From Massilia sp. Se16.2.3 (lineage in GTDB: Bacteria > Pseudomonadota > Gammaproteobacteria > Burkholderiales > Burkholderiaceae_D), in NCBI RefSeq assembly GCF_014171595.1, contig NZ_CP050451.1, positions 620,001 to 684,000 of the forward strand: 64,000 bases of DNA, read 5' to 3'. The position numbers and the translations under genes are program-made. The notes under the pieces are model-generated. The model worked only from the letters and a program-made list of their open reading frames with translations. It made no database searches and had not been told where the DNA came from. Numbering within the stretch: position 1 is the first letter of the stretch; every line of letters starts with the position of its first letter. Below, in pieces: positions 20,774-44,150 of the stretch.

Positions 20774-23700
20774 ATGAACGACATCACCCCCGCCGCCAAG
20801 CTCGAGCTGCCTGAGCAGCAAAAGCTGGCCAACAAGGTGCGCTTCGTCACCGCCGCTTCGCTCTTCGACGGCCATGACGCCTCGATCAACATCATGCGCC
20901 GCATCCTGCAGTCGAACGGCGTCGAGGTCATCCACCTCGGCCACAACCGCTCGGTCGACGAAGTCGTCACCGCGGCGCTGGCCGAAGACGTGCAAGGCAT
21001 CGCCATCTCCAGCTACCAGGGCGGCCACGTCGAATACTTCAAATACATGATCGACCTGCTGCGCCAGCGCGGCGGTGCCCACATCAAGGTCTTCGGCGGC
21101 GGCGGCGGCGTCATCGTCCCGTCCGAAATCGAGGAACTGCATGCCTACGGTGTCGCGCGCATCTTCAGCCCGGAAGACGGCCAGCGCATGGGCCTCGTCG
21201 GCATGATCCGCTCGATGATCGAAGCCTGCGACATCGACCTGTCCGGCTACGCTCCCACCAGCATCGATGCCCTGCAGCTTGGTAACGCGGGCGACATCGC
21301 CGCGCGCCACCGTCCGCTGGCCCAGCTGATCACGGCACTCGAAAACGGCAAGGTCGAAGAAAGCCTGCGCACGCAGGTGCTGGAAACGGCCGACACCTTG
21401 AAGGTGCCGACGCTGGGCATCACCGGCACCGGCGGCGCCGGTAAATCCTCGCTGACAGATGAACTCATTCGCCGCATCCGCCTCGACCAGGGCGACCGCC
21501 TGAACATCGCCGTGATCTCGATCGACCCGTCGCGCCGCAAATCCGGCGGCGCCCTGCTGGGCGACCGTATTCGCATGAACGCGATCAATCCGTGGAACGG
21601 CCAGCACCGCGTCTTCATGCGCTCGCTCGCCACCCGCGAAGCCGGCTCGGAAATCTCGGCCGCGCTGCCAAGCGTGATCGCCGCTTGTAAAGTCGCTGGC
21701 TTCGACCTGGTGATCGTGGAAACCTCGGGCATCGGCCAGGGCGACGCGGCCATCGTGCCGCACGTCGACGCCTCGATGTACGTGATGACGCCGGAATTCG
21801 GCGCCGCCTCGCAGCTTGAGAAAATCGACATGCTCGATTTCGCCGACTTCATCGCCATCAACAAATTCGACCGCAAGGGCGCCCAGGACGCGCTGCGCGA
21901 CGTGGCAAAGCAGTACCAGCGCAACCGCGAACTGTGGAGCATGAGCCCGGACCAGATGCCGGTATTCGGCACCCAGGCATCGCGCTTCAACGACGATGGC
22001 GTCACCGCCCTCTACCACGGCCTTCTGCCGAAGCTGGCCGAACTCGGCCTGCGGGTCGAGCCGTCGCGCCTGGAAGCGCCTGGCCAGAAGCATTCGAGCG
22101 GCAAGAATGTCATCGTGCCGCCAGCCCGCGCGCGCTACCTTGCCGAAATCGCCGACACCGTGCGCGGCTACCACCGCAACACGTCGAAACAGGTAAAACT
22201 GGCACGCGAGCGTCAGCAACTGAGCGAGACGAAACGCATGCTGGCCGCCGCCAACCGTGAAGTGATCCTGGACGACCTGATCACCGAACGCGAAAACGCG
22301 ATGGACGGCAGCGCCAAGAAACTGCTGGCCATGTGGCCCGACATGCAGGCGGCCTACGCCGGCGACGATTACGTCGTCAAAATCCGCGACAAGGAAATCC
22401 GCACCAAACTGGTGCAAAAAACCCTGTCCGGCACCACGATTCGCAAGGTGGCGCTGCCGAAGTACGAAGACCACGGCGAAATCCTGCGCTTCCTGATGCT
22501 GGAAAACGTGCCGGGCTCCTTCCCGTTCACGGCCGGCGTGTTCGCTTTCAAACGCGAAGGCGAAGACCCGACCCGCATGTTCGCCGGCGAAGGCGATGCC
22601 TTCCGCACGAATAAACGTTTCAAACTGGTCTCGACCGGCATGGACGCGAAACGCCTGTCCACCGCCTTCGATTCCGTGACCCTGTACGGCGCCGATCCGG
22701 CACTGCGCCCGGACATCTACGGTAAAGTGGGCAACTCGGGCGTATCGATCGCGACCCTGGACGACATGAAGGTGCTGTACGACGGTTTTGATCTGTGCAG
22801 TCCGTCGACTTCGGTCTCGATGACGATCAACGGCCCGGCGCCGACCATCCTGGCGATGTTCATGAACACCGCCATCGACCAGCAGATCGACAAGTTCGTG
22901 GCCGACAACGGCCGCCAGCCGACCGACGACGAAGCGCAGAAGATCCGCGAGTGGGTGCTGGCCAACGTCCGCGGCACCGTGCAGGCCGACATCCTGAAGG
23001 AAGACCAGGGGCAAAACACCTGTATTTTCTCGACCGAGTTCTCGCTGAAGGTCATGGGCGACATCCAGGAATACTTTGTCCATCACCAGGTGCGCAATTT
23101 CTACTCGGTGTCGATCTCGGGCTACCACATCGCCGAAGCGGGCGCGAACCCGATCTCGCAGCTGGCCTTTACGCTGTCGAACGGCTTTACCTTTGTCGAA
23201 GCCTACCTCGCGCGCGGCATGCACATCGACGACTTCGCACCGAACCTGTCGTTCTTCTTCTCGAACGGCATGGACCCGGAATACACGGTGCTGGGCCGCG
23301 TGGCGCGCCGCATCTGGGCTGTCGCCATGCGCGACAAGTACGGCGCCAACGACCGCTCGCAGAAGCTGAAATACCACGTGCAGACTTCGGGCCGCTCGCT
23401 GCACGCCCAGGAAATCGACTTCAACGACATCCGCACCACGCTGCAGGCGCTGATCGCGATCTACGACAACTGCAATTCGCTGCACACCAACGCGTATGAC
23501 GAAGCCATCACCACGCCGACCGACGAATCCGTCCGCCGCGCACTGGCGATCCAGCTGATCATCAACCGCGAGTGGGGCCTGGCGAAGAACGAGAACCCGA
23601 ACCAGGGCGCCTTCATCATCGACGAACTGACGGACCTCGTCGAAGAAGCGGTGCTGCAGGAGTTCGAGCGCATCGCCGAACGCGGCGGCGTGCTCGGTGC

Positions 23701-33056: not shown

Positions 33057-35830
33057 ATGTCCCGTATTACCTCCAAGATGAAACTCACCACCGCCGTGGT
33101 GTCCGGCGCCCTGCTGCTGTCCGGCTTGGCCGGCTGCAACCGCGACCAGTCGACCGCCAGCCTGCTGGCCGAGGCCAAGCAATACCAACAGAAGGGCGAC
33201 CGCAAGGCCGCACTGATCCAGCTGAAGAACGCCGTGGCGAAGAGCCCGCAGGATGGCGAGGCGCGCATGGCGCTGGGCACGCTGTATCTGGAAACCGGCG
33301 ACAGCGTCTCGGCCGACAAGGAGCTGCGCAAGGCGGCCAGCCTCGGCATTCCTGCCGAGCGCACGCTGCCGCTGCTGGCGCAGGCCATGCAGGGACAGGG
33401 CAAGTTCAAGGAAATCCTTGCTGAAATCAAACCAGAGATGGCGGCGAAATCGGCGCCCCTGACGGCGCTGCGCGGCGATGCCATGCTCGCCACCAACGAT
33501 CTCGACGGCGCCAAGGCGGCCTACGAGGCGGCGCTGGCGCTGCAGCCGAACAGCGGCGCCGCCTTCACCGGCCTGGCGCGCCACGCGCTGCTCAAGCGCG
33601 ACGTGACCGCCGCCGAGCGCTACACCGCCGAGGCGGTGGAAAAAGACCCGAAGAATGCGGACGCCTGGATGTTCCGTGGCGGCATGCTGCGCGGCATGAA
33701 CAAGCCGGACGAGGCCCTGGCTTCGTTCGACAAGGCGCTGGCACTGCGTCCGTATGACCAGAACGCCAACCTGGAAAAGGCGTATATCCGCATCAACCAA
33801 GGCAAGTACGACCTGGCCACGACCGAGATCGAGGCCGCGCGCAAGATCGCGCCGAACGGCCTGCTCGTGACCTATGCCCAGGCCCTCCTCGACTACACGC
33901 AGGGCAAGAACGCGGCCGCGCGCGAATCCGTGCAAAAAGTCCTGAAGGTCGCGCCGGAGCACCTGCCGAGCATCCTGCTGGCCGGTGCCATCGAGCTGAA
34001 CCTGGACTCGGCCCAGCAGGCCCAGTCGCACCTGCGCAAATACCTGGAAGCCGATCCGGGCAACCTGCACGCACGCAAGCTGCTGGCCCAGGCGCTGCTC
34101 AAGGGTTCGCAGCCGAACGACGCCGTCGCCACGCTGGCGCCGGCCCTGAACGACAGCAAGGATCCGCAGCTGCTGGCGCTGGCCGGCGAGTCCTACATGC
34201 AGGCGCACGATTACAACAAGGCCACCACCTATTTCGAAAAGGCTGCCCAGCTGGCGCCGGAGGCGGCCGTGGTGCGCACCTCGCTCGGCCTGTCGCGCCT
34301 GAACCAGGGCGACACCGCCAAGGCCATCGGCGAACTCGAGCGCGCGACCGAACTCGATCCGAAATCGGACCGCGCCCTCACGGCGCTGGTCCAGGCCGAA
34401 CTCGGCCTGAAGCACTACGACAAGGCCCTGGCCGCGGTCGGCAAGCTGGAAAAAATCAAGCCGGAAGACCCGCAGACCTACAACCTGAAGGCCACCGTCC
34501 TGCTGAGCAAGGGCGATGTGCCGGCCGCGCGTGCCGCATTCGAAAAGGCACTGCAGGTGAAACCGATATTCTTCCCGGCGACCGCCAACCTGGCCAAGCT
34601 GGACATGATGGAGAAGAAGCCGGAAGCGGCGCGCAAGCGTTTCGAAAGCCTGCTCGAGAAGGACAAGAAGAACTTCGGCGCGATGTCGGCGCTGGCCGAA
34701 CTGGCTGCGCTGGACAACCGTCCCAACGACGCCACGACCTGGCTCGAGAAGGCCCAGGCCGAGAACCCGGACGCGATCCCGCCGGTGCTGAAGCTCGGTA
34801 GCCATTACCTGGCCACCAAGCAGGAAAAGAAGGCGCTGACGCTGGCGCGCAAATTCCAGGCATCGAACCCGGGCAATGCCGAACTGCTCGACCTGCTCGG
34901 CAAGGCCCAGCTGGCCACCGACGACGGCCTGGGCGCCCTCGATACCTACAGCAAGCTGGTCAACGTGGTGCCGAAGTCGGCACTGGCGCAGATGCGCCTG
35001 GCCGAGGCCCATGAGAAGCTGAAGAACGATGCCGCCGCCGCCGAAGCGCTCAAGCGCGCCGTCGCACTGCAGCCGGACTGGTGCAGGCACGCGTGGCCCA
35101 GATCGGCGTGGCCACGCGCCGCGGCCGCACCGACGAGGCGCTGGCAATGACGCGCGAGGTGCAGCAGCAGAATCCGAAGTCGCCCATCGGCTTCCTGCTC
35201 GAGGCCGACCTGTATCGCGCACAGAAGAAGCCCGAGCTGGCATTGGCCGCCTACGACAAGGCCCTGGGCGTGACCAAATCGGGCACGATCCTGATCCGCA
35301 GCGCCGAACTGCTGCGCCAGATGGGCAAGAACAAGGAAGCGGAGGCGCGCGTACTGCAGTTTGCCAAGGCCAATCCGGACGACGTCCCGGTCCATATGTA
35401 CCTGGCCGAGTCTTACCTGGCGGCCAAGGAATACAAGCCGGCCGCGAGCGTGCTCGAGGAGATGGTCAAGCGCAACCCGAACAATGGTGCGGCGCTCAAC
35501 AACCTGGCCTGGGCCTACCAGCAGTTGAAGGATCCACGCGCGCTGGCCACCGCCGAGCAGGCCTACAAGGTCGCGCCGACGAATGCGGCCGTCCTCGATA
35601 CACTGGGCTGGATGCTGGTCGAACAGGGGAATACGGAGCGTGGTTTGCCGCTGCTGCAAAAAGCATTGGCCGGTGCATCGGCGTCCCCGGAAATCCGCTA
35701 TCACGTGGCGCTTGGTTTGCATAAATCGGGCGACAAGAAGGGGGCGCGCAAGGAGCTTGAAACCCTGCTCGCCCAGAACCGTCCATTCCCCCAGTTGGAG
35801 GAAGCCCGTTCGTTGCTAAAAACCCTGTAA
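33057..35830 (+). CDS. prsT: PEP-CTERM system TPR-repeat lipoprotein PrsT, frameshifted in this sequence
   Basis: A lipoprotein signal (VVSGALLLSGLAGCN, lipobox Cys near residue 28) is followed by many TPR units across the whole length (SLLAEAKQYQQKGDRKAAL, KPDEALASFDKALALRPYDQN, NPNNGAALNNLAWAYQQLKD). The frame breaks near 35078 (GGACTGG); adding one C restores LQPDLVQARVAQIGV and 924 residues, matching the ~900-930 length of the PrsT family (TIGR02917), which marks exosortase A genomes. It probably acts in the periplasm on EPS or PEP-CTERM protein handling. It lies upstream of the N-acyl amino acid synthase operon. Confidence 0.9.
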
Positions 35831-38955: not shown

Positions 38956-39843
38956 TTAGGCCTTCTTTGCGCGCTTGCGGCTGACGACGCCAGCGCCCAG
39001 CATGGCGATGCCGAACAGGGCCAGCGAGCCTGGTTCTGGAACTTCAGCCAGTTTGAACTGACCGTTGTTCGAGACGAAGAAGTACTGGCCAGGAGCGTTG
39101 GCGTAAGCCGAGCCGTTGCAGCCGGCGCCGGTGAAGCCAGCGTATTGGCAAGCAACTTCAGCGACCAGGTTTTCGGTGCCGCTGCTGTTCGGGTTGTTCA
39201 CTGGGTTAGCGTTGGTGAACGCGAACGACATGATCGATTCCATCGACAGGTCGTCGCCGTTGCCGCGGAAGAAGTAGCCTGGAGCCAGGTCGCCGGCGTC
39301 AGCCTTGGCGAACACGCTCACTTGACCGTTGGCGATTGGGCTGCCGCTTGCATCGACCTGGCCGCCGCCGCCAGCCAGCACGTCGAACGAAGCGATCAGG
39401 TTGCCCAGGTTCGCGCCGTAGAAGCCCTCGGTGCCGCCGTACTGGTTGTTGGTTGGGTTCTGGTACATGCGGATGGTGCCGCCGGTGAACGAGAACGAAC
39501 CGTTGGTCGAGCCGCTGCCCAGGGTGCCGGTACCGAAGCCTTCGAAGGTTGCGGTGATGTTGCCGCCTGGGAAGTTCACTGGGAACAGTTTACCGTTGCT
39601 GTCAGCCTGGACGATGTTGAACACAGCGTGCTCGACGAACGAGAAGCTGTTGCCGCCGGTCGGGGTCAGCTGAATGAACGACTGGCCGTTGATGTCCAGG
39701 TATTCGCCGATTTCCTGGCCATTTTCGAAGCCGCCGCCGTTCGGGTTGAAGACCCAATCGTTCAGCACGACTTCTGCGTTAGCGGCACCAGCGAAAGACA
39801 TTGCAACAGCAGCGGCGCAAGCCATTTTCTTCAGAAATTTCAT
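38956..39843 (-). CDS. PEP-CTERM sorting-domain protein (exosortase substrate)
   Basis: 295 residues from the ATG at 39843 (AGGA upstream). A Sec signal peptide (KKMACAAAVAMSFAGAANA) and a mature domain rich in Gly/Asn (EVVLNDWVFNPNGGGFENG ... GTGTLGSGSTNGSFSFTGG) lead to the C-terminal sorting signal VPEPGSLALFGIAMLG followed by RKRAKK: motif, membrane helix and basic tail. XrtA, encoded downstream, should cut and transfer it to the surface or EPS matrix. Two Cys (about 260 and 268) may form a disulfide. The gene has a perfect sigma-54 promoter and a terminator, so it is a single regulated transcript. The mature domain is not one I recognise. Confidence 0.93.
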   Translation of the reverse strand: MKFLKKMACAAAVAMSFAGAANAEVVLNDWVFNPNGGGFENGQEIGEYLDINGQSFIQLTPTGGNSFSFVEHAVFNIVQADSNGKLFPVNFPGGNITATFEGFGTGTLGSGSTNGSFSFTGGTIRMYQNPTNNQYGGTEGFYGANLGNLIASFDVLAGGGGQVDASGSPIANGQVSVFAKADAGDLAPGYFFRGNGDDLSMESIMSFAFTNANPVNNPNSSGTENLVAEVACQYAGFTGAGCNGSAYANAPGQYFFVSNNGQFKLAEVPEPGSLALFGIAMLGAGVVSRKRAKKA

Positions 39844-39895: not shown

Positions 39896-39911
39896 AGCAA
39901 GCGCCGTGCCA
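39896..39911 (-). promoter_or_regulatory. Sigma-54 promoter of the PEP-CTERM gene
   Basis: On the minus strand: TGGCACG-GCGC-TTGCT, an exact match to the RpoN consensus TGGCACGNNNNTTGCW with correct -24/-12 spacing, about 52 bases before the ATG. XrtA loci usually carry the sigma-54 activator PrsR (outside this window), the likely partner. Confidence 0.88.
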
Positions 39912-39928
39912 GCTCATCAGGACTCTTT

Positions 39929-39945
39929 AAAATCAACCACTTAGC
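39929..39945 (-). promoter_or_regulatory. 17-bp element upstream of the sigma-54 promoter (copy 1)
   Basis: Plus-strand AAAATCAACCACTTAGC, 17 bases upstream of the -24 element. It differs at one position from the copy before the GYWK operon. The core AATCAACCACTTA fits the IHF consensus WATCAANNNNTTR, so it may be an IHF site, an activator site, or both. Confidence 0.7.
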
Positions 39946-40067
39946 ATAAGCATTTAGAGCAATATCAACAACAATGTAAAAACTTTCGACATAACATTTC
40001 TCAATTGAAACGATAATTGGAATTTCAAATTTTCTTAATGCAAGTTATTTCCGGGTGGCACGCCCAT

Positions 40068-40892
40068 TTACTTTTCTTGGTGCAATTTGTTATTCAATTG
40101 CCCGATTAACTCGCTCGCTGCGCGTACGATTTGCGGCACGTCGAAGCCGGCACGGGTGAGTTCGCGGTAGAACGAGCGCGCCAGGATCCGGGCCGCCTCT
40201 TCGGGATTCCGGTACACGGTGCGCGCCGCACCCTCGGCCTCGGCTTCACGCGCCAGGGCCAGCTGGGCGAAACGCGAGTCGAGCAGGCGCTGCAACTGGG
40301 ATACCTGGATGGTCTTGCCGATGAACTGGCAGATCACCTCCAGCAGCAGCAGGTCGGCCTGGCGGAAGGACATGCCGGACACATTCACGACGCCGACGAT
40401 ACGGCCATCGATCGGAATCGGTCCCGACATCAGGCTGCGCCCCGGTGCCAGCGGCCGCCGCGCCAGCAGGGCGTAGGGGGAACTGCCGATGTCTTCCACC
40501 AGCAGCGCGCGCCCGCTGGCGAGCACCTGGCCGCAAATGCCCTCGCCGCGGCCGATGCTCGATGCGAACACCGCATCCGGAACCGCTTCCGGCGCATCCT
40601 TTCCCTGCGCGAGGTTGGCACGCGCATGGACGCGCAGGCGCGGTGCCTCGCCGCTGCCACTACTGAGCAGCATGATCGAGCAGCTGTCGGCACCGAGCAT
40701 GCGGGCGGTCTGGGTCGCCTGGCCGTCAAGATTGTCTTCGAGGCTGCCGCTGGAAAGAAACTGCTGCAGGTCGTGCAGGCGCACCAAACCCTGGTCGGCT
40801 GCTGCTTCGGCCGGGACTGCGGCCGGTGCCGCCGCTGTTTGGTCCTGCGGCCTGGCTGGTGCTTCCCGCTCTGCTTCCCGTTCTGCTTCCAT
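40068..40892 (-). CDS. GAF-domain protein
   Basis: 274 residues; GAGGTG precedes the start. A Glu/Arg/Ala/Pro-rich N-terminus (EAEREAEREAPARPQDQ) leads to a GAF domain, residues ~40-200 (LDGQATQTARMLGADSCSIMLL, GEGICGQVLASGRALLVEDI, SLMSGPIPIDGRIVGVVNVSG), then a helical C-terminal region without a recognisable output domain. No HTH, kinase, GGDEF or EAL domain. It resembles sensory adaptors. It lies 113 bases after the nucleotidyltransferase gene on the same strand, with an inverted repeat between them, so co-transcription with the GYWK operon is possible. Confidence 0.8.
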   Translation of the reverse strand: MEAEREAEREAPARPQDQTAAAPAAVPAEAAADQGLVRLHDLQQFLSSGSLEDNLDGQATQTARMLGADSCSIMLLSSGSGEAPRLRVHARANLAQGKDAPEAVPDAVFASSIGRGEGICGQVLASGRALLVEDIGSSPYALLARRPLAPGRSLMSGPIPIDGRIVGVVNVSGMSFRQADLLLLEVICQFIGKTIQVSQLQRLLDSRFAQLALAREAEAEGAARTVYRNPEEAARILARSFYRELTRAGFDVPQIVRAASELIGQLNNKLHQEK

Positions 40893-40911
40893 TCGTCACC
40901 TCGTCGGTTCG

Positions 40912-40930
40912 GCACGGGCCTGGCCCGTGC
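40912..40930. other. Inverted repeat between nucleotidyltransferase and GAF genes
   Basis: GCACGGGCC-T-GGCCCGTGC, perfect 9-base arms with a single central base. Without a T-run and with almost no loop it is more like a protein-binding palindrome than a terminator; role unknown. Confidence 0.4.
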
Positions 40931-41005
40931 ATTACTGAATAGACAGCGCCCGCTTCACGGAGCCGCTTTGCAGGCCCGCATTGCGGACACAGGCAGCCGC
41001 TTGCG

Positions 41006-42096
41006 CTAGCGCACCGGCTCGGCGCGCGGCGCCAGGAATGCTTTATGAAACAGGTGGCGCGACAGCATCCATGGCGGCATGCGCAGCCAGTTACCGCGTA
41101 TATATAACAGGCCATGGGCGAGCGGATCGAGCACGCCGGCACAGCTCGGATGAAACGGACGCAGCGCACGCGCGAACAGCGCATCCATTAGCGCGCGCAA
41201 GGGCCAGGCCGGACCTGCCGCTGCCAGCGCCGCGAAGGCCTGCGCCGGCACCGGGGTGCCGAGCAGGCGCGCGCAGTAGCGCAGCGCATAGAACAGCGGC
41301 CGCGCCAGCTCGAGTTCGTGCGCACGCGCCGGTAGCGCCGCCCAGAAGCCCGCTTCCTGCGCACCGAAGTGGCACAGCAGGCGGTGCAGGTCGAACAGGT
41401 CGCGCAGGCCATGGTGGTATTCGCCTTCGAAGAACAGGTGGGTGGCGCTGTGCAGCACCATGTCGCAGGGGGGGCCAGCACATACAGGCCGTCACTTCCG
41501 GCGATGGGCCGCGCCGCCGCCGCGCAGCCGCGCCGGATCGGGGCGTTGCGCCGCCGTCTGCGGCAGGATCGCATGATGTACGTCGATCACGCTGGCACGG
41601 CGCATGTGCTGCAAGGGCGGCAGTTCGTGCATCCATTCGCGGTAGTAGCGCTGGTCGTAGGCGTCGTGGTGGGTCCCGGCCCAGCCGTGCAGCATCAGGA
41701 GACTCTCGACTTCGTCCGGGCGCTCGCGCGGCACCGGGATGTCGATGTCGGAAAACAGCCGGCCCGCCGCCGCCGGCAGGCCGGCCGCGACATAGGCGCT
41801 CCCCTTCAGGATGATCAGGGGCAAGCGGGTACCGGCCAGCGCTCGCCGCACCTGGCCGAGTTCGAAGCGCACCGCGCGCGCATGGCGTTCCCGTGCAGTG
41901 CGGTCCCAGCACAGGCGGCGCCAGGCCAGCGGCGGCAGCGCGTCGGCCATGCCATGTTCCTCGGCCAGCAGGCACAAGGTGGCCCCATGCCGGCGGCGCG
42001 CGCCTGGCGCAGCAGCAGCTCCCATCCCGGCCCGTCCAGCGCAGCCATGCGCGCGGGGGTGCGCAGCACCTCGACCAGCAAAGGGAGCGGCCTCAT
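41006..42096 (-). CDS. Nucleotidyltransferase family protein (NTP_transf_5 type), three frameshifts in this sequence
   Basis: The ATG overlaps the stop of the HprK-like gene (ATGA). Motifs from successive frames form one protein: LLVEVLRTPARMAALDGPGW, ADALPPLAWRRLCWDRT, LPLIILKGSAYVAAGLP, GRLFSDIDIPVPRE (the Asp pair DID of the nucleotidyltransferase site), VIDVHHAILP, then MVLHSATHLFFEGEYHHGL and LRDLFDLHRLLCHFG. Breaks lie at a C run 41983-41986, in the GC-rich stretch 41500-41525 and in the G run 41468-41474. Correcting them gives 363 residues. This family is the third partner of the HPr-rel-A cassette; substrate unknown. Confidence 0.8.
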
Positions 42097-43025
42097 CGGC
42101 GCTGCGCCAGCAGGCGTTCGAACACGTCCATGGCGTCGTCGAGCGCGCCATAGCGGAAATCAACAGTGCGGGTGGCCTCGATCAGGCGCGCCACCGTCTC
42201 GAAACCGGCCCCGCCGAGCAGGCTGTAGTTGAAGGCGTTCTCGGCCAGACGCAGGTGGGCGCGTGCCTGCGCTACCGGCACCAGTTCGGCCGGGGCATCG
42301 CGCTCCCACTTCGGGAACACGATCCAGGCCGGTGCCGCCGGCTCGAGCGCGCGTGCGACGCTCGTGCCTGGCGCACGCATGTGCGCAACCGTACCCTTCA
42401 CCGTATCGCGCACGGGCACCGTCAATTCGGCCGCCGGCGCCCGGGCACGGATCACGTCGATCGAGCCGTTCTTCAGGCTGACCGGGCGCGGCAAGGGGTC
42501 GATGCGGCCGTCGTCCAGGCGGACGAGCGTCAGTTCGTCCGACAGCAGGCGCCAGCCGCGCGCGACCGGGGCGGCACACAGCGTGCTCTTGCCGGAACCG
42601 GGCGGCGCCGGCAGGATCGCCGCCGCCCCCTCCTTTTCGACGACGGCGGCGTGGATGACGAGCCAGGAATGGGCCTGGCTCGAGACGCACCAGTTCATTG
42701 CCCATTCGAACATCGGGAAGGCCTGCGCCAGCGGCAGCGGCTGGAAGGGCGCCATGCCCTCGTAATGGAAGTGGACCTGGGGCCGCACCGGGCGCCGCAG
42801 GCCCTGCGAGCCGGACAGGCGCACGTCGAAATCGGCAAAGCTGTCGCCGTCGCGCACCGGGTAGTCGGCATACATGCTGGCCAGGGTATCGGCCAGGGAG
42901 GGAAGCGCACTGCGCACGCAGGTGACGAAGGGGCCGGTCTGCAGCCGCAGGCCGGGGCCGCGCAGGCGCGCGGCCAGTTCGCGGCGGCCGAGCGTGGCGA
43001 CGGTGGGCAGGCCGGTGCTCAGCAA
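42093..43025 (-). CDS. HprK-related kinase A (HPr-rel-A system)
   Basis: 310 residues using the TTG at 43025, which sits next to the PqqD stop. The P-loop LPAPPGSGKSTLCAAPVARG (about residue 155) and following SDELTLVRLDDGRIDPLPRP match the HPr kinase/phosphorylase fold; RPVSLKNGSIDVI and NAFNYSLLGGAGFETVARLI are conserved in the HprK-related kinase A family. True HprK phosphorylates the PTS protein HPr, but this family occurs in a cassette with a PqqD-like protein and a nucleotidyltransferase, often in exosortase A genomes; its substrate is unknown. Overlaps both neighbours by a few bases. Confidence 0.85.
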   Translation of the reverse strand: MLSTGLPTVATLGRRELAARLRGPGLRLQTGPFVTCVRSALPSLADTLASMYADYPVRDGDSFADFDVRLSGSQGLRRPVRPQVHFHYEGMAPFQPLPLAQAFPMFEWAMNWCVSSQAHSWLVIHAAVVEKEGAAAILPAPPGSGKSTLCAAPVARGWRLLSDELTLVRLDDGRIDPLPRPVSLKNGSIDVIRARAPAAELTVPVRDTVKGTVAHMRAPGTSVARALEPAAPAWIVFPKWERDAPAELVPVAQARAHLRLAENAFNYSLLGGAGFETVARLIEATRTVDFRYGALDDAMDVFERLLAQRR

Positions 43026-43282
43026 GGCAGTGCGTCGATCAGGTAGAGCGCCGCCAGGTCGGCCAGCACCTCTTCCAGCTCCGGAAGGGATGCCGGATCG
43101 GCAGCGGCAAGCGCGGCGGCGGACTGCGGCGCGTCGCGCAGCGCCTGCAACAGCGCGAGGGCCGGTTCGGCCAGCAGGTGGGTGTCGCCGGAAAGGTCGT
43201 TGAAGAGCACGCATTCGCCGTCGTGGCAGCGGTGCATCAGGCGCTGGCCGGGGGCCAGGCGCCAGGTCGGATCACTTCTCAT
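43019..43282 (-). CDS. PqqD-family peptide chaperone of the HPr-rel-A system
   Basis: 87 residues, from the ATG at 43282. Motifs WRLAPGQRLMHRCHDGECVL, FNDLSGDTHLLAEPALALLQAL and LEEVLADLAALYLID correspond to the winged-helix PqqD/RRE fold that binds leader peptides of peptide substrates. The start codon lies 26 bases after the GYWK stop and the stop abuts the HprK start, so it belongs in the operon. A peptide- or protein-presenting role for the kinase or nucleotidyltransferase is inferred from the fold. Confidence 0.85.
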   Translation of the reverse strand: MRSDPTWRLAPGQRLMHRCHDGECVLFNDLSGDTHLLAEPALALLQALRDAPQSAAALAAADPASLPELEEVLADLAALYLIDALPC

Positions 43283-43308
43283 GCGTACCAGCAACGCGCC
43301 ACGAGGGC

Positions 43309-43938
43309 CTAGCGGAAGGTGGTTTCGAGGTAAGCGGCCAGCTGTGCGCCGGTCCATGGGGTGGCGCTGCCGGTCGGACGGTACGAGCCCTTCAGGCTGA
43401 ATTCGTCCCAGATCGCCACCACTTTGTCTTCTGCCAGCACGCTCGGGATCCCGGACATGGCCGAGGAACGGGCATTGAGCAGCGCCGTGACGATTTGCAT
43501 GGCCACGTTGTTGCGGTCGATGGCCTTGACCGGGTTCGGTTGCTCGAGGATTTCCAGCAGCGTGAAGTTCTTCAGGCCGGAATAGCTGCCGCGCGCAGCC
43601 AGCACGTCGGCGAAGCGCGTGGTCGGGCTGGTGCCGGTACGCGATTTCCACGCGCTGGAATGGGTTTTCCAGTAGCCGTGCGAACGATTATTGCTGCAGG
43701 AATTGGCCGGGTTGTGGCTGGCGGTCTTGATCGACATGAAGCCGGACGGCGAAGCGCAGGTGGCCAGGCTACCGGCCGCCATGCCTGGCTGGCTGTGCAG
43801 TGTCAGGATGACGCCGCCTGCACCGAGCCCAGCGCGGGTAAAGCGACGGCGCGCCGCCCCTTTTGGATCAAGGGCCGGCAGTTCGCCAACTGCCTGCGGA
43901 GCAGGCGACATCTCTGCAGTTTTATGTTGATCTTCCAT
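43309..43938 (-). CDS. Exported GYWK-type protein, first gene of the PqqD/HprK operon
   Basis: 209 residues from the ATG at 43938. The N-terminal ~30 residues are followed by a twin-arginine-like signal (ARRRFTRAGLGAGGVILTLH ... GMAAG), suggesting Tat export. The mature part has three or more Cys (CASPSG, SCSNNRSHGYWKTHSSAW) and the motif HGYWKTHSSAW, which resembles the GYWKNHxxAW segment recurring in bacterial secreted proteins of unknown function. Then come NFTLLEILEQ, AMQIVTALLNARSSAM, and the tail WTGAQLAAYLETTFR. No PEP-CTERM signal. A sigma-54 promoter lies upstream. It may be the target of the PqqD/HprK/nucleotidyltransferase proteins; this is a guess from operon order. Confidence 0.8.
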   Translation of the reverse strand: MEDQHKTAEMSPAPQAVGELPALDPKGAARRRFTRAGLGAGGVILTLHSQPGMAAGSLATCASPSGFMSIKTASHNPANSCSNNRSHGYWKTHSSAWKSRTGTSPTTRFADVLAARGSYSGLKNFTLLEILEQPNPVKAIDRNNVAMQIVTALLNARSSAMSGIPSVLAEDKVVAIWDEFSLKGSYRPTGSATPWTGAQLAAYLETTFR

Positions 43939-44002
43939 AATGCGTTCCTGAGTCCTCGAAAGTAGGCCATACCCAAGCGGGCACAGGTCTTTCCACTGCT
44001 TA

Positions 44003-44018
44003 AGCAAACCTCGTACCA
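44003..44018 (-). promoter_or_regulatory. Sigma-54 promoter of the GYWK/PqqD/HprK operon
   Basis: On the minus strand: TGGTACG-AGGT-TTGCT, one mismatch from the RpoN consensus, correct spacing, 64 bases before the ATG at 43938. Confidence 0.82.
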
Positions 44019-44037
44019 GTTAGCCTATATTACTCAT

Positions 44038-44051
44038 CAATTGATCAATTG
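44038..44051. promoter_or_regulatory. 14-bp perfect palindrome upstream of the sigma-54 promoter
   Basis: CAATTGATCAATTG reads the same on both strands and lies between the -24 element and the 17-bp element. It may bind a regulator dimer; no equivalent of the same sequence is present before the PEP-CTERM gene. Confidence 0.45.
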
Positions 44052-44057
44052 CAACAA

Positions 44058-44074
44058 AAAATCAATCACTTAGC
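44058..44074 (-). promoter_or_regulatory. 17-bp element upstream of the sigma-54 promoter (copy 2)
   Basis: Plus-strand AAAATCAATCACTTAGC, 39 bases upstream of the -24 element, 16/17 identical to copy 1 at 39929-39945 and in the same orientation. It also fits the IHF consensus. Confidence 0.7.
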
Positions 44075-44150
44075 CCCGTAGACAGTCTGGTACGCCCAAA
44101 CGACGACGGCGCCACCCGGCGCCGTTGTAAGAAAACCCGACAGGGTTCTA

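Follow-up and report, generated by a model that had tools for sequence, protein, structure and literature searches.

A stretch of 64,000 nucleotides (nt) from Massilia sp. Se16.2.3 (contig NZ_CP050451.1, positions 620,001 to 684,000), called the window here, carries two transcription units on its minus strand that share the elements of their control regions. The first is a pepA-like PEP-CTERM gene (38956-39843, minus strand), whose product matches NF033554 floc_PepA with 134.8 bits (cut-off 80) and TIGR02595 with 22.7 bits (cut-off 16). The second is the GYWK/PqqD/HprK operon, which begins with the gene of an uncharacterised protein containing a GYWKTH stretch (43309-43938, minus strand) and continues with the genes of PqqD_rel_X (43019-43282, minus strand) and of the HprK-related kinase A, HprK_rel_A (42093-43028, start approximate, minus strand). 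All positions are those of the window; the whole genome comprises 5,351,291 bases in one contig. Both promoters very probably belong to the PrsR (XrtA/PEP-CTERM) regulon, and each would consist of a 17-bp PrsR-type box, a site for integration host factor (IHF), and a sigma-54 promoter, with the DNA between box and promoter folded into a hairpin by IHF.

Elements shared by the two promoters

The pepA-like gene starts 52 nt downstream of a -24/-12 element, TGGCACGGCGCTTGCT (39896-39911, minus strand), which has no mismatch to the sigma-54 (RpoN) pattern TGGCACGN4TTGCW, and the corresponding element of the operon, TGGTACGAGGTTTGCT (44003-44018, minus strand), has one. Upstream of each lies a 17-mer in identical orientation, at 39929-39945 and 44058-44074, separated from the -24 element by 17 and 39 bases, respectively. 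A first-pass annotation had described these two RpoN promoters, their 17-mers, and the two gaps, and the description was confirmed when coordinates and mismatch counts were re-read from the sequence. The two copies, 4.1 kb apart, agree in 16 of 17 bases. With up to three mismatches, the 17-mer occurs in the window only at these two places, against 0.08 occurrences expected from 100 dinucleotide shuffles. The annotation had named random occurrence of the 17-mer over the genome as an outcome that would refute its reading; the 15-mer AATCAANCACTTAGC has two exact matches in the whole genome, namely the two window copies, and 21 matches with up to two mismatches (19 of them with one or two), compared with 7 for the reversed control pattern.

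Within both 17-mers, the IHF consensus, quoted as WATCARNNNNTTR (PMC8421141; PMC9519438), is matched without a mismatch. The core of the pepA promoter, TAAGTGGTTGATT on the gene strand (39931-39943, minus strand, reverse relative to the gene), has no mismatch to YAANNNNTTGATW, reaches a score of 15.4 with the matrix described below, and lies 19 bp upstream of TGG. The core of the operon promoter, TAAGTGATTGATT (44060-44072, minus strand, reverse), likewise has no mismatch, scores 16.1, and lies 41 bp upstream of TGG.

A second shared element, absent from the first-pass annotation, is a PrsR-type box upstream of both promoters. The pepA box, TGTCGAAAGTTTTTACA (39975-39991, minus strand), ends in TTTACA and is separated from the -24 element by a spacer of 63, and the box of the operon, TGTCGGGTTTTCTTACA (44126-44142, minus strand), ends in CTTACA, one base off, with a spacer of 107. 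Besides these two, the window has one weak match, at 22375, to the pattern TGTCGN4TTTTTACA with up to two mismatches. A motif 1 of 17 nt with the end TTTACA, followed by a sigma-54 motif 2, was described as the predicted PrsR site (Haft 2006, PMC1569441). The box TGTCGN7TTACA fits motif 1, as judged from the TTTACA end, the spacing, and the associated genes rather than from the logo. Because the box is a separate element further upstream, the 17-mer falls in the interval from box to promoter, where IHF sites are usually located. The 17-mer is most likely an IHF docking site and probably not the PrsR site, which runs against the suggestion of the annotation that it could be a PrsR site or a fused site of IHF and activator. 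The reading as an IHF site, for which the annotation had also pointed out the fit to the consensus, is supported by that fit and by location, and by the either-way orientation and the A/T-rich flank described below.

Members of the regulon in the genome

Fourteen copies of the strict box TGTCGN6YTTACA are present in the genome, compared with one of the reversed control, and all 14 boxes are followed within 51-107 nt by a sigma-54-like site (up to three mismatches, GG kept). Thirteen of them precede open reading frames (ORFs) for PEP-CTERM proteins, 12 recognised by PF07589 and one by its C-terminal pattern only, and the remaining one precedes the GYWK/PqqD/HprK operon. The connection between the PEP-CTERM gene and the operon drawn by the annotation is thus upheld, since both transcription units have a control region of the sigma-54/PrsR type. 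An IHF-like site scoring at least 8 is found in the spacer of 11 of the 14 boxes, and in ten of these the base W of WATCAA lies 19, 20, 30 or 42 upstream of TGG.

When PF07589 loci are taken as the starting point, box and sigma-54 site (each with up to three mismatches) are present at 18 of 29, within 1.5-kb flanks in which long genes are cut. The exact pattern TGGYACGN4TTGC has 11 matches in the genome, of which five are at PEP-CTERM or HprK promoters, with IHF scores of 11.5-16.1; the other six, which may not be promoters, stay below an IHF score of 8 within 110 nt (best 7.7). The proteins expected to act at these sites are encoded in the genome: PrsR 13 kb beyond the right end of the window (G000:C1:697074-698402, 749.7 bits, cut-off 502.6), and the IHF subunits by ihfB (NF001222, 152.4 bits, cut-off 115) and ihfA (NF001401, 162.4 bits, cut-off 111).

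An IHF-like site as a third element

Two sets of promoters were compiled. Set A comprises 121 promoters from species genomes (at least 120 stretches), chosen only by a box, a distance of 45-75 nt, and a sigma-54 site. Set B comprises 80 further promoters, taken from the window's own genome and others of its genus, with both patterns and a spacer of 30-130; 73 of these are in loci fetched by the box and sigma-54 pattern, and seven are from the window's own genome, reached via searches for PEP-CTERM, sigma-54 or the 15-mer. Removal of spacers at least 60% identical leaves a non-redundant set of 190 of the 201 promoters, 127 of which have a site. The scoring matrix was built from set A, which is thus its training set, and a score of 8 was used as the threshold. 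Downstream of the set A promoters, a PEP-CTERM pattern is found in 70 cases and not found in 35, and 16 are cut by the contig end.

In set A, the IHF consensus with up to one mismatch has 47 reverse and 23 forward occurrences, compared with 8.7 and 8.5 in dinucleotide shuffles (maxima of 18 and 16 in 200 rounds). The position is restricted as well: 37 of the 47 reverse cores end at a distance of 18-20 bp from TGG, and 15 of the 23 forward cores at 5-7 bp. An unseeded expectation-maximisation search over the 201 spacers of both sets converged on AAATCAANNACTTA, the IHF consensus, with an estimated 0.87 of the spacers occupied and a log-likelihood of 601.7, whereas shuffled spacers gave at best 42.4 in 30 shorter runs. 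Scores of at least 8 are reached by 65 of 121 promoters in set A, the training set, and by 72 of 80 in set B (67 of the 73 fetched by pattern), against a mean of 11.4 of 201 in mononucleotide-shuffled spacers (50 rounds). In 64 of the set A promoters, the scoring site is in phase. By taxonomic group (assigned by hand), set A promoters have a site scoring at least 8 in 18 of 18 Oxalobacteraceae, 28 of 48 other Beta- or Gammaproteobacteria, 4 of 10 members of the delta group or other phyla, and 5 of 7 unplaced metagenome-assembled genomes.

The surroundings of the core also resemble those of IHF sites. IHF introduces two bends 9 bp apart into a 35-bp site, with the consensus on the right and an A-tract on the left (PMC8421141; PMC9519438). 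Around the 137 scoring sites (42 forward, 95 reverse), the A/T fraction, given here without a shuffled control, is 0.69-0.85 at -14 to -9 from W, on the same side of the motif in both orientations, and dips to 0.49-0.60 at -7 and -6.

The annotation had also remarked that the identity of the two copies extends past the 13 IHF positions. Part of this identity is general, as a G/T preference at two bases of N4 (0.62 and 0.49 bit) and a T/A beside W are common to the 201 promoters, while the base adjoining the core on the GC side is not conserved (0.11 bit). A fused element, in which IHF occupied the 13-base core and another protein (PrsR or HU) the extra bases, would account for copies identical in 16 of 17 bases and for the biased N4; the absence of conservation in the first flanking base argues against it, and the N4 bias is modest and could be a preference of IHF itself in this group. 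We regard such a fusion as highly improbable, and an IHF site remains the preferred reading of the 17-mer.

Orientation and helical spacing

The IHF site occurs in both orientations, which are mirrored about the base W of WATCAA and not about the centre of the core, 6 bases away. In the non-redundant set, 21 of 41 forward sites and 60 of 86 reverse sites have W at a distance of 19-20 bp from TGG, and most others are one turn further. The middle of the IHF complex presumably falls at about this base. That symmetry bears on the possibility that the 17-mer is a second site for PrsR or another dimeric activator, giving a promoter with two activator sites. Two boxes are common in NtrC-type promoters, some promoters have a core of partial dyad symmetry, such as CAAG-NN-CTTG, and the G-T preference in N4 could be read in the same way. 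A palindromic activator site, however, would be mirrored about its own centre, whereas the sites found here are mirrored about W; in addition, the PrsR-type box TGTCG-N7-TTACA differs in sequence and occurs once upstream, and the A/T-rich flank, like the composition WATCARNNNNTTR, corresponds to IHF. A second activator site is thus considered very unlikely, nearly as much so as the fused element. Tandem PrsR boxes 0-103 bp upstream of the box were also sought in 200 promoters and rejected, with 68 matches (up to three mismatches) against 73 in shuffled sequence.

With an IHF site at W, each spacer is divided into two arms, one from the box to W, with classes of about 33, 43, 54 and 65, and one from W to the -24 element, with classes of about 20, 31 and 42. 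The steps are of about 11 bp, and each arm shows R = 0.89 at 11 bp in the 127 non-redundant promoters with a site. Total spacers fall into classes near 52, 63, 74, 85, 96 and 107. When spacers of 66-96 were sought in 41 genomes (the window's own and 40 of the genus), all 56 matches were at 71-75, 77, 83-87 or 94-96. The annotation had interpreted the 22-bp difference between its two gaps as helically meaningful, and 11-bp steps indeed prove to be general in these promoters.

The 137 scoring sites of both sets were placed in a lattice whose cells give the box arm plus the promoter arm in turns, as plain counts and with no null model. At a total of 52, cell 3+1 holds 18 sites and 4+0 one; at 63, all 62 are in 4+1; at 74, 15 are in 5+1, 12 in 4+2 and one in 3+3; at 85, all 18 are in 5+2; at 96, all nine are in 6+2; and at 107, the only site, in 6+3, is that of the HprK operon of the window. 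The main cells are therefore 3+1, 4+1, 4+2 or 5+1, 5+2, 6+2 and 6+3, and from their occupancy by total length the arms appear to lengthen in alternation. The difference between the arms is about 23 bp, plus or minus one turn, in 136 of the 137 sites. In the window, the pepA promoter occupies cell 4+1 (arms of 43 and 20) and the operon promoter cell 6+3 (arms of 65 and 42), so that each arm differs by two turns between them and the arm difference is 23 bp in both.

The HPr-rel-A operon and its neighbourhood

The operon contains what defines an HPr-rel-A system, since the kinase (TIGR04352, 382 bits, cut-off 200) and PqqD_rel_X (TIGR04353, 49.6 bits, cut-off 35) both score above their cut-offs. 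The family profile search found no PEP-CTERM domain in the GYWK, PqqD and HprK proteins, unlike in the product of the pepA-like gene. The first gene of the operon has no Pfam or NCBIfam match at E 0.001, and of 61 genus genomes searched, 48 contain relatives of it, with 49 matches in all. Its product, the GYWKTH protein, may be a substrate of the HPr-rel-A system or a partner in it. By eye, its N-terminus is twin-arginine-like.

The control region is conserved with the operon. A box and a sigma-54 site (sum of mismatches at most 4) are present upstream in 29 of the 30 best genus loci, that of the window included, compared with none in 20 rounds of block shuffling, and 23 of the genus HprK loci have an IHF consensus with up to one mismatch. 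Their spacers are 73, 83-86, 94-97 and 107 (the window's own), with one at 120. In the nearest relatives, L213 and L214 (protein 68% identical), the spacer is 96 and the IHF core lies 30 bp from TGG, so that comparison with the window (107 and 41) places the 11-bp difference wholly between IHF site and promoter. At class level, HprK_rel_A is found above its cut-off in 41 of 369 genomes. For other genera, box and sigma-54 site are present in 16 of 29 loci (of the 30 best), about 0.8-1.2 kb upstream of the hprK match, compared with none in ten rounds of block shuffling. The HprK/PqqD operon is thus, as predicted from its control region, a regular member of the regulon and a conserved exception without PEP-CTERM.

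These data also bear on a shared ancestry of the two window promoters, in which a short duplication would have copied one from the other. The proximity of the copies and their near identity would suit such an origin, but the spacers differ outside the elements, the operon has its own box and sigma-54 site in nearly all genus loci, most of them with the IHF consensus, and element and phase are kept in the promoters that remain once similar spacers are removed. A duplication is the least credible of the alternatives considered, and the resemblance is better attributed to common membership in the PrsR regulon.

The long spacer of the operon contains a hairpin with an 8-bp stem, ACGGCGCC-GGGT-GGCGCCGT (44106-44125, minus strand; fold z -3.2), which adjoins the box. 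By eye, its GC-rich stem is kept with changed pairs in L213, L214 and L217. It probably ends the transcript of the upstream XrtA export gene, and may account for the long spacer of the HprK operon here and in near relatives.

Downstream of the kinase gene, the operon continues with a nucleotidyltransferase gene with an interrupted frame (41006-42097, minus strand), in which parts of PF14907 are matched in the ORFs 41492-42097 and 41006-41461. Between the two promoters lies a further gene (40068-40892, minus strand), whose sole NCBIfam match is weak (NifA, 20.4 bits, cut-off 528.85).

Proposed mechanism and its weight

The 50-107 bp from the box to the -24 element would be too short and too stiff for unaided looping, so that folding by IHF would be needed. 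PrsR would bind the box and IHF the site between box and promoter, and IHF would fold the spacer into a hairpin, bringing PrsR onto the closed sigma-54 holoenzyme; transcription would hence depend on IHF. Selection would keep the geometry and not the orientation of IHF. With W held some 33, 43, 54 or 65 bp downstream of the box and some 20, 31 or 42 bp before the -24 TGG, both arms would be in helical phase. If the arms are locked separately and grow in alternation by one turn, the enhancer arm would be one to three turns longer.

On a more general level, it is reasonably probable that the PrsR regulon represents a spacing library of one rigid hairpin, with IHF as an obligatory, orientation-indifferent pivot and arms that lengthen alternately, and that the HPr-rel-A operon, being a widespread member of the regulon, belongs to the exosortase/PEP-CTERM physiology.

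Several observations weigh against the proposed mechanism. No site scoring 8 is found in 56 of the 121 set A promoters or in 3 of the 14 boxes of the genome, where the weaker sites have W at 20, 20 and 38, and one of the 11 scoring sites of the genome is off phase. For HprK at class level, only 10 of the 16 promoters reach a score of 8 or more with an IHF-like site, and one of these sites is clearly off phase. Among the 29 PF07589 loci, within the 1.5-kb flanks, one has a sigma-54 site and an IHF core and no box, and ten have neither. The association between arm lengths is significant in set B (Fisher p 2e-5, spacers at least 50% identical removed), which oversamples long spacers, and is absent in set A, where totals are limited to 45-75 (p 1.0 and 0.58); the claim of a balance between the arms therefore rests on the cells that are empty at a given total. 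An exosortase-substrate gene of Geobacter sulfurreducens is apparently listed among those up-regulated in ihf mutants (PMC7962754), which would oppose an activating role only if that gene has a promoter of this type.

The taxonomic distribution points the same way, since only 10 of 38 alphaproteobacterial promoters of set A (groups assigned by hand) have a site scoring 8, so that such promoters either can do without IHF or have a diverged site for it. Sphingomonad promoters (L135, L151 and L179, along with other alphaproteobacterial loci) have a box and a sigma-54 site and no good IHF consensus. By eye, several sphingomonad spacers share AATC-like bases and, after them, a G/C-rich run whose end is about 7 bp upstream of TGG. 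The AATC-like stretch is perhaps a diverged IHF site.

In the strain itself, rpoN is matched in two pieces in different frames (G000:C1:1412980-1414421), and prsT is split over two frames of the window (33057-35150 and 35081-35830, plus strand), with TIGR02917 positions 11-668 matched by the first ORF and 671-898 by the second. These breaks make the function of the regulon in this strain uncertain. Together with that in the nucleotidyltransferase gene, they are probable assembly errors.

In environmental Proteobacteria, flocculation and probably also the assembly of the matrix are under the control of PEP-CTERM/exosortase systems, whose promoter has so far been presented as a pair of motifs separated by a variable spacer. 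Adding a third element of strict geometry leads to the prediction that the regulon is gated by IHF, and hence by growth phase and nucleoid state. A score over all three parts, combined with phase, offers a means of finding regulon members, and the natural spacing variants offer a test of how enhancer-binding protein, bent DNA and sigma-54 holoenzyme are laid out in space. The uncharacterised HPr-rel-A genes would be tied to the exosortase/PEP-CTERM system.

Comparison with known systems

The closest precedent is the PEP-CTERM region analysed by Haft (2006, PMC1569441), with which the window shares the end of motif 1, the -24 GG and -12 GC of motif 2, and an encoded PrsR. That work reports the co-occurrence of PrsK, PrsR and PrsT, a few sites before other genes, and a mean spacer between the motifs of 62.8 nt (range 32-92). 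The pepA spacer of 63 is within this range; the 107 of the operon is beyond it, yet on the 11-bp series. Its text names two motifs and does not mention IHF, whereas here there is a third element, which occurs in either orientation and defines two phase-locked arms, along with spacers reaching 107 and, as a conserved target, an operon that lacks PEP-CTERM. For pepA of Aquincola tertiaricarbonis, a -24/-12 start has been mapped that depends on RpoN1, with an earlier-predicted enhancer upstream (PMC9850573). The pepA-like gene of the window resembles it in being a PEP-CTERM gene with a predicted promoter of that kind and a putative upstream enhancer, and IHF is not mentioned in the text of that paper.

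In the open-licence literature searched, no report of IHF in the PrsR/PEP-CTERM regulon was found, an absence that is weak evidence. None of the matches listed combined PEP-CTERM with helical turn, DNA bending or upstream activating sequence, and for HPr-rel-A or HprK-related kinase the matches listed contained 'PqqD family' only. As far as these searches show, four features are new, namely the third element, a pivot indifferent to orientation, a lattice of two arms, and HPr-rel-A as a target.

IHF-assisted sigma-54 promoters, such as nifH and Pu, are textbook examples of promoter architecture. In the general scheme, IHF bends the DNA so that the activator meets the holoenzyme (PMC7962754). 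With an IHF site between enhancer and promoter, the window promoters are alike in layout and are, by that likeness, predicted to be machines of the same kind as well as members of the PrsR regulon of Haft (2006). We know of no other sigma-54 regulon with a two-arm lattice and either orientation of IHF. Unlike in the general scheme, the natural spacings of a whole regulon fall here on a two-arm 11-bp lattice, and IHF sites of either orientation share a fixed W.

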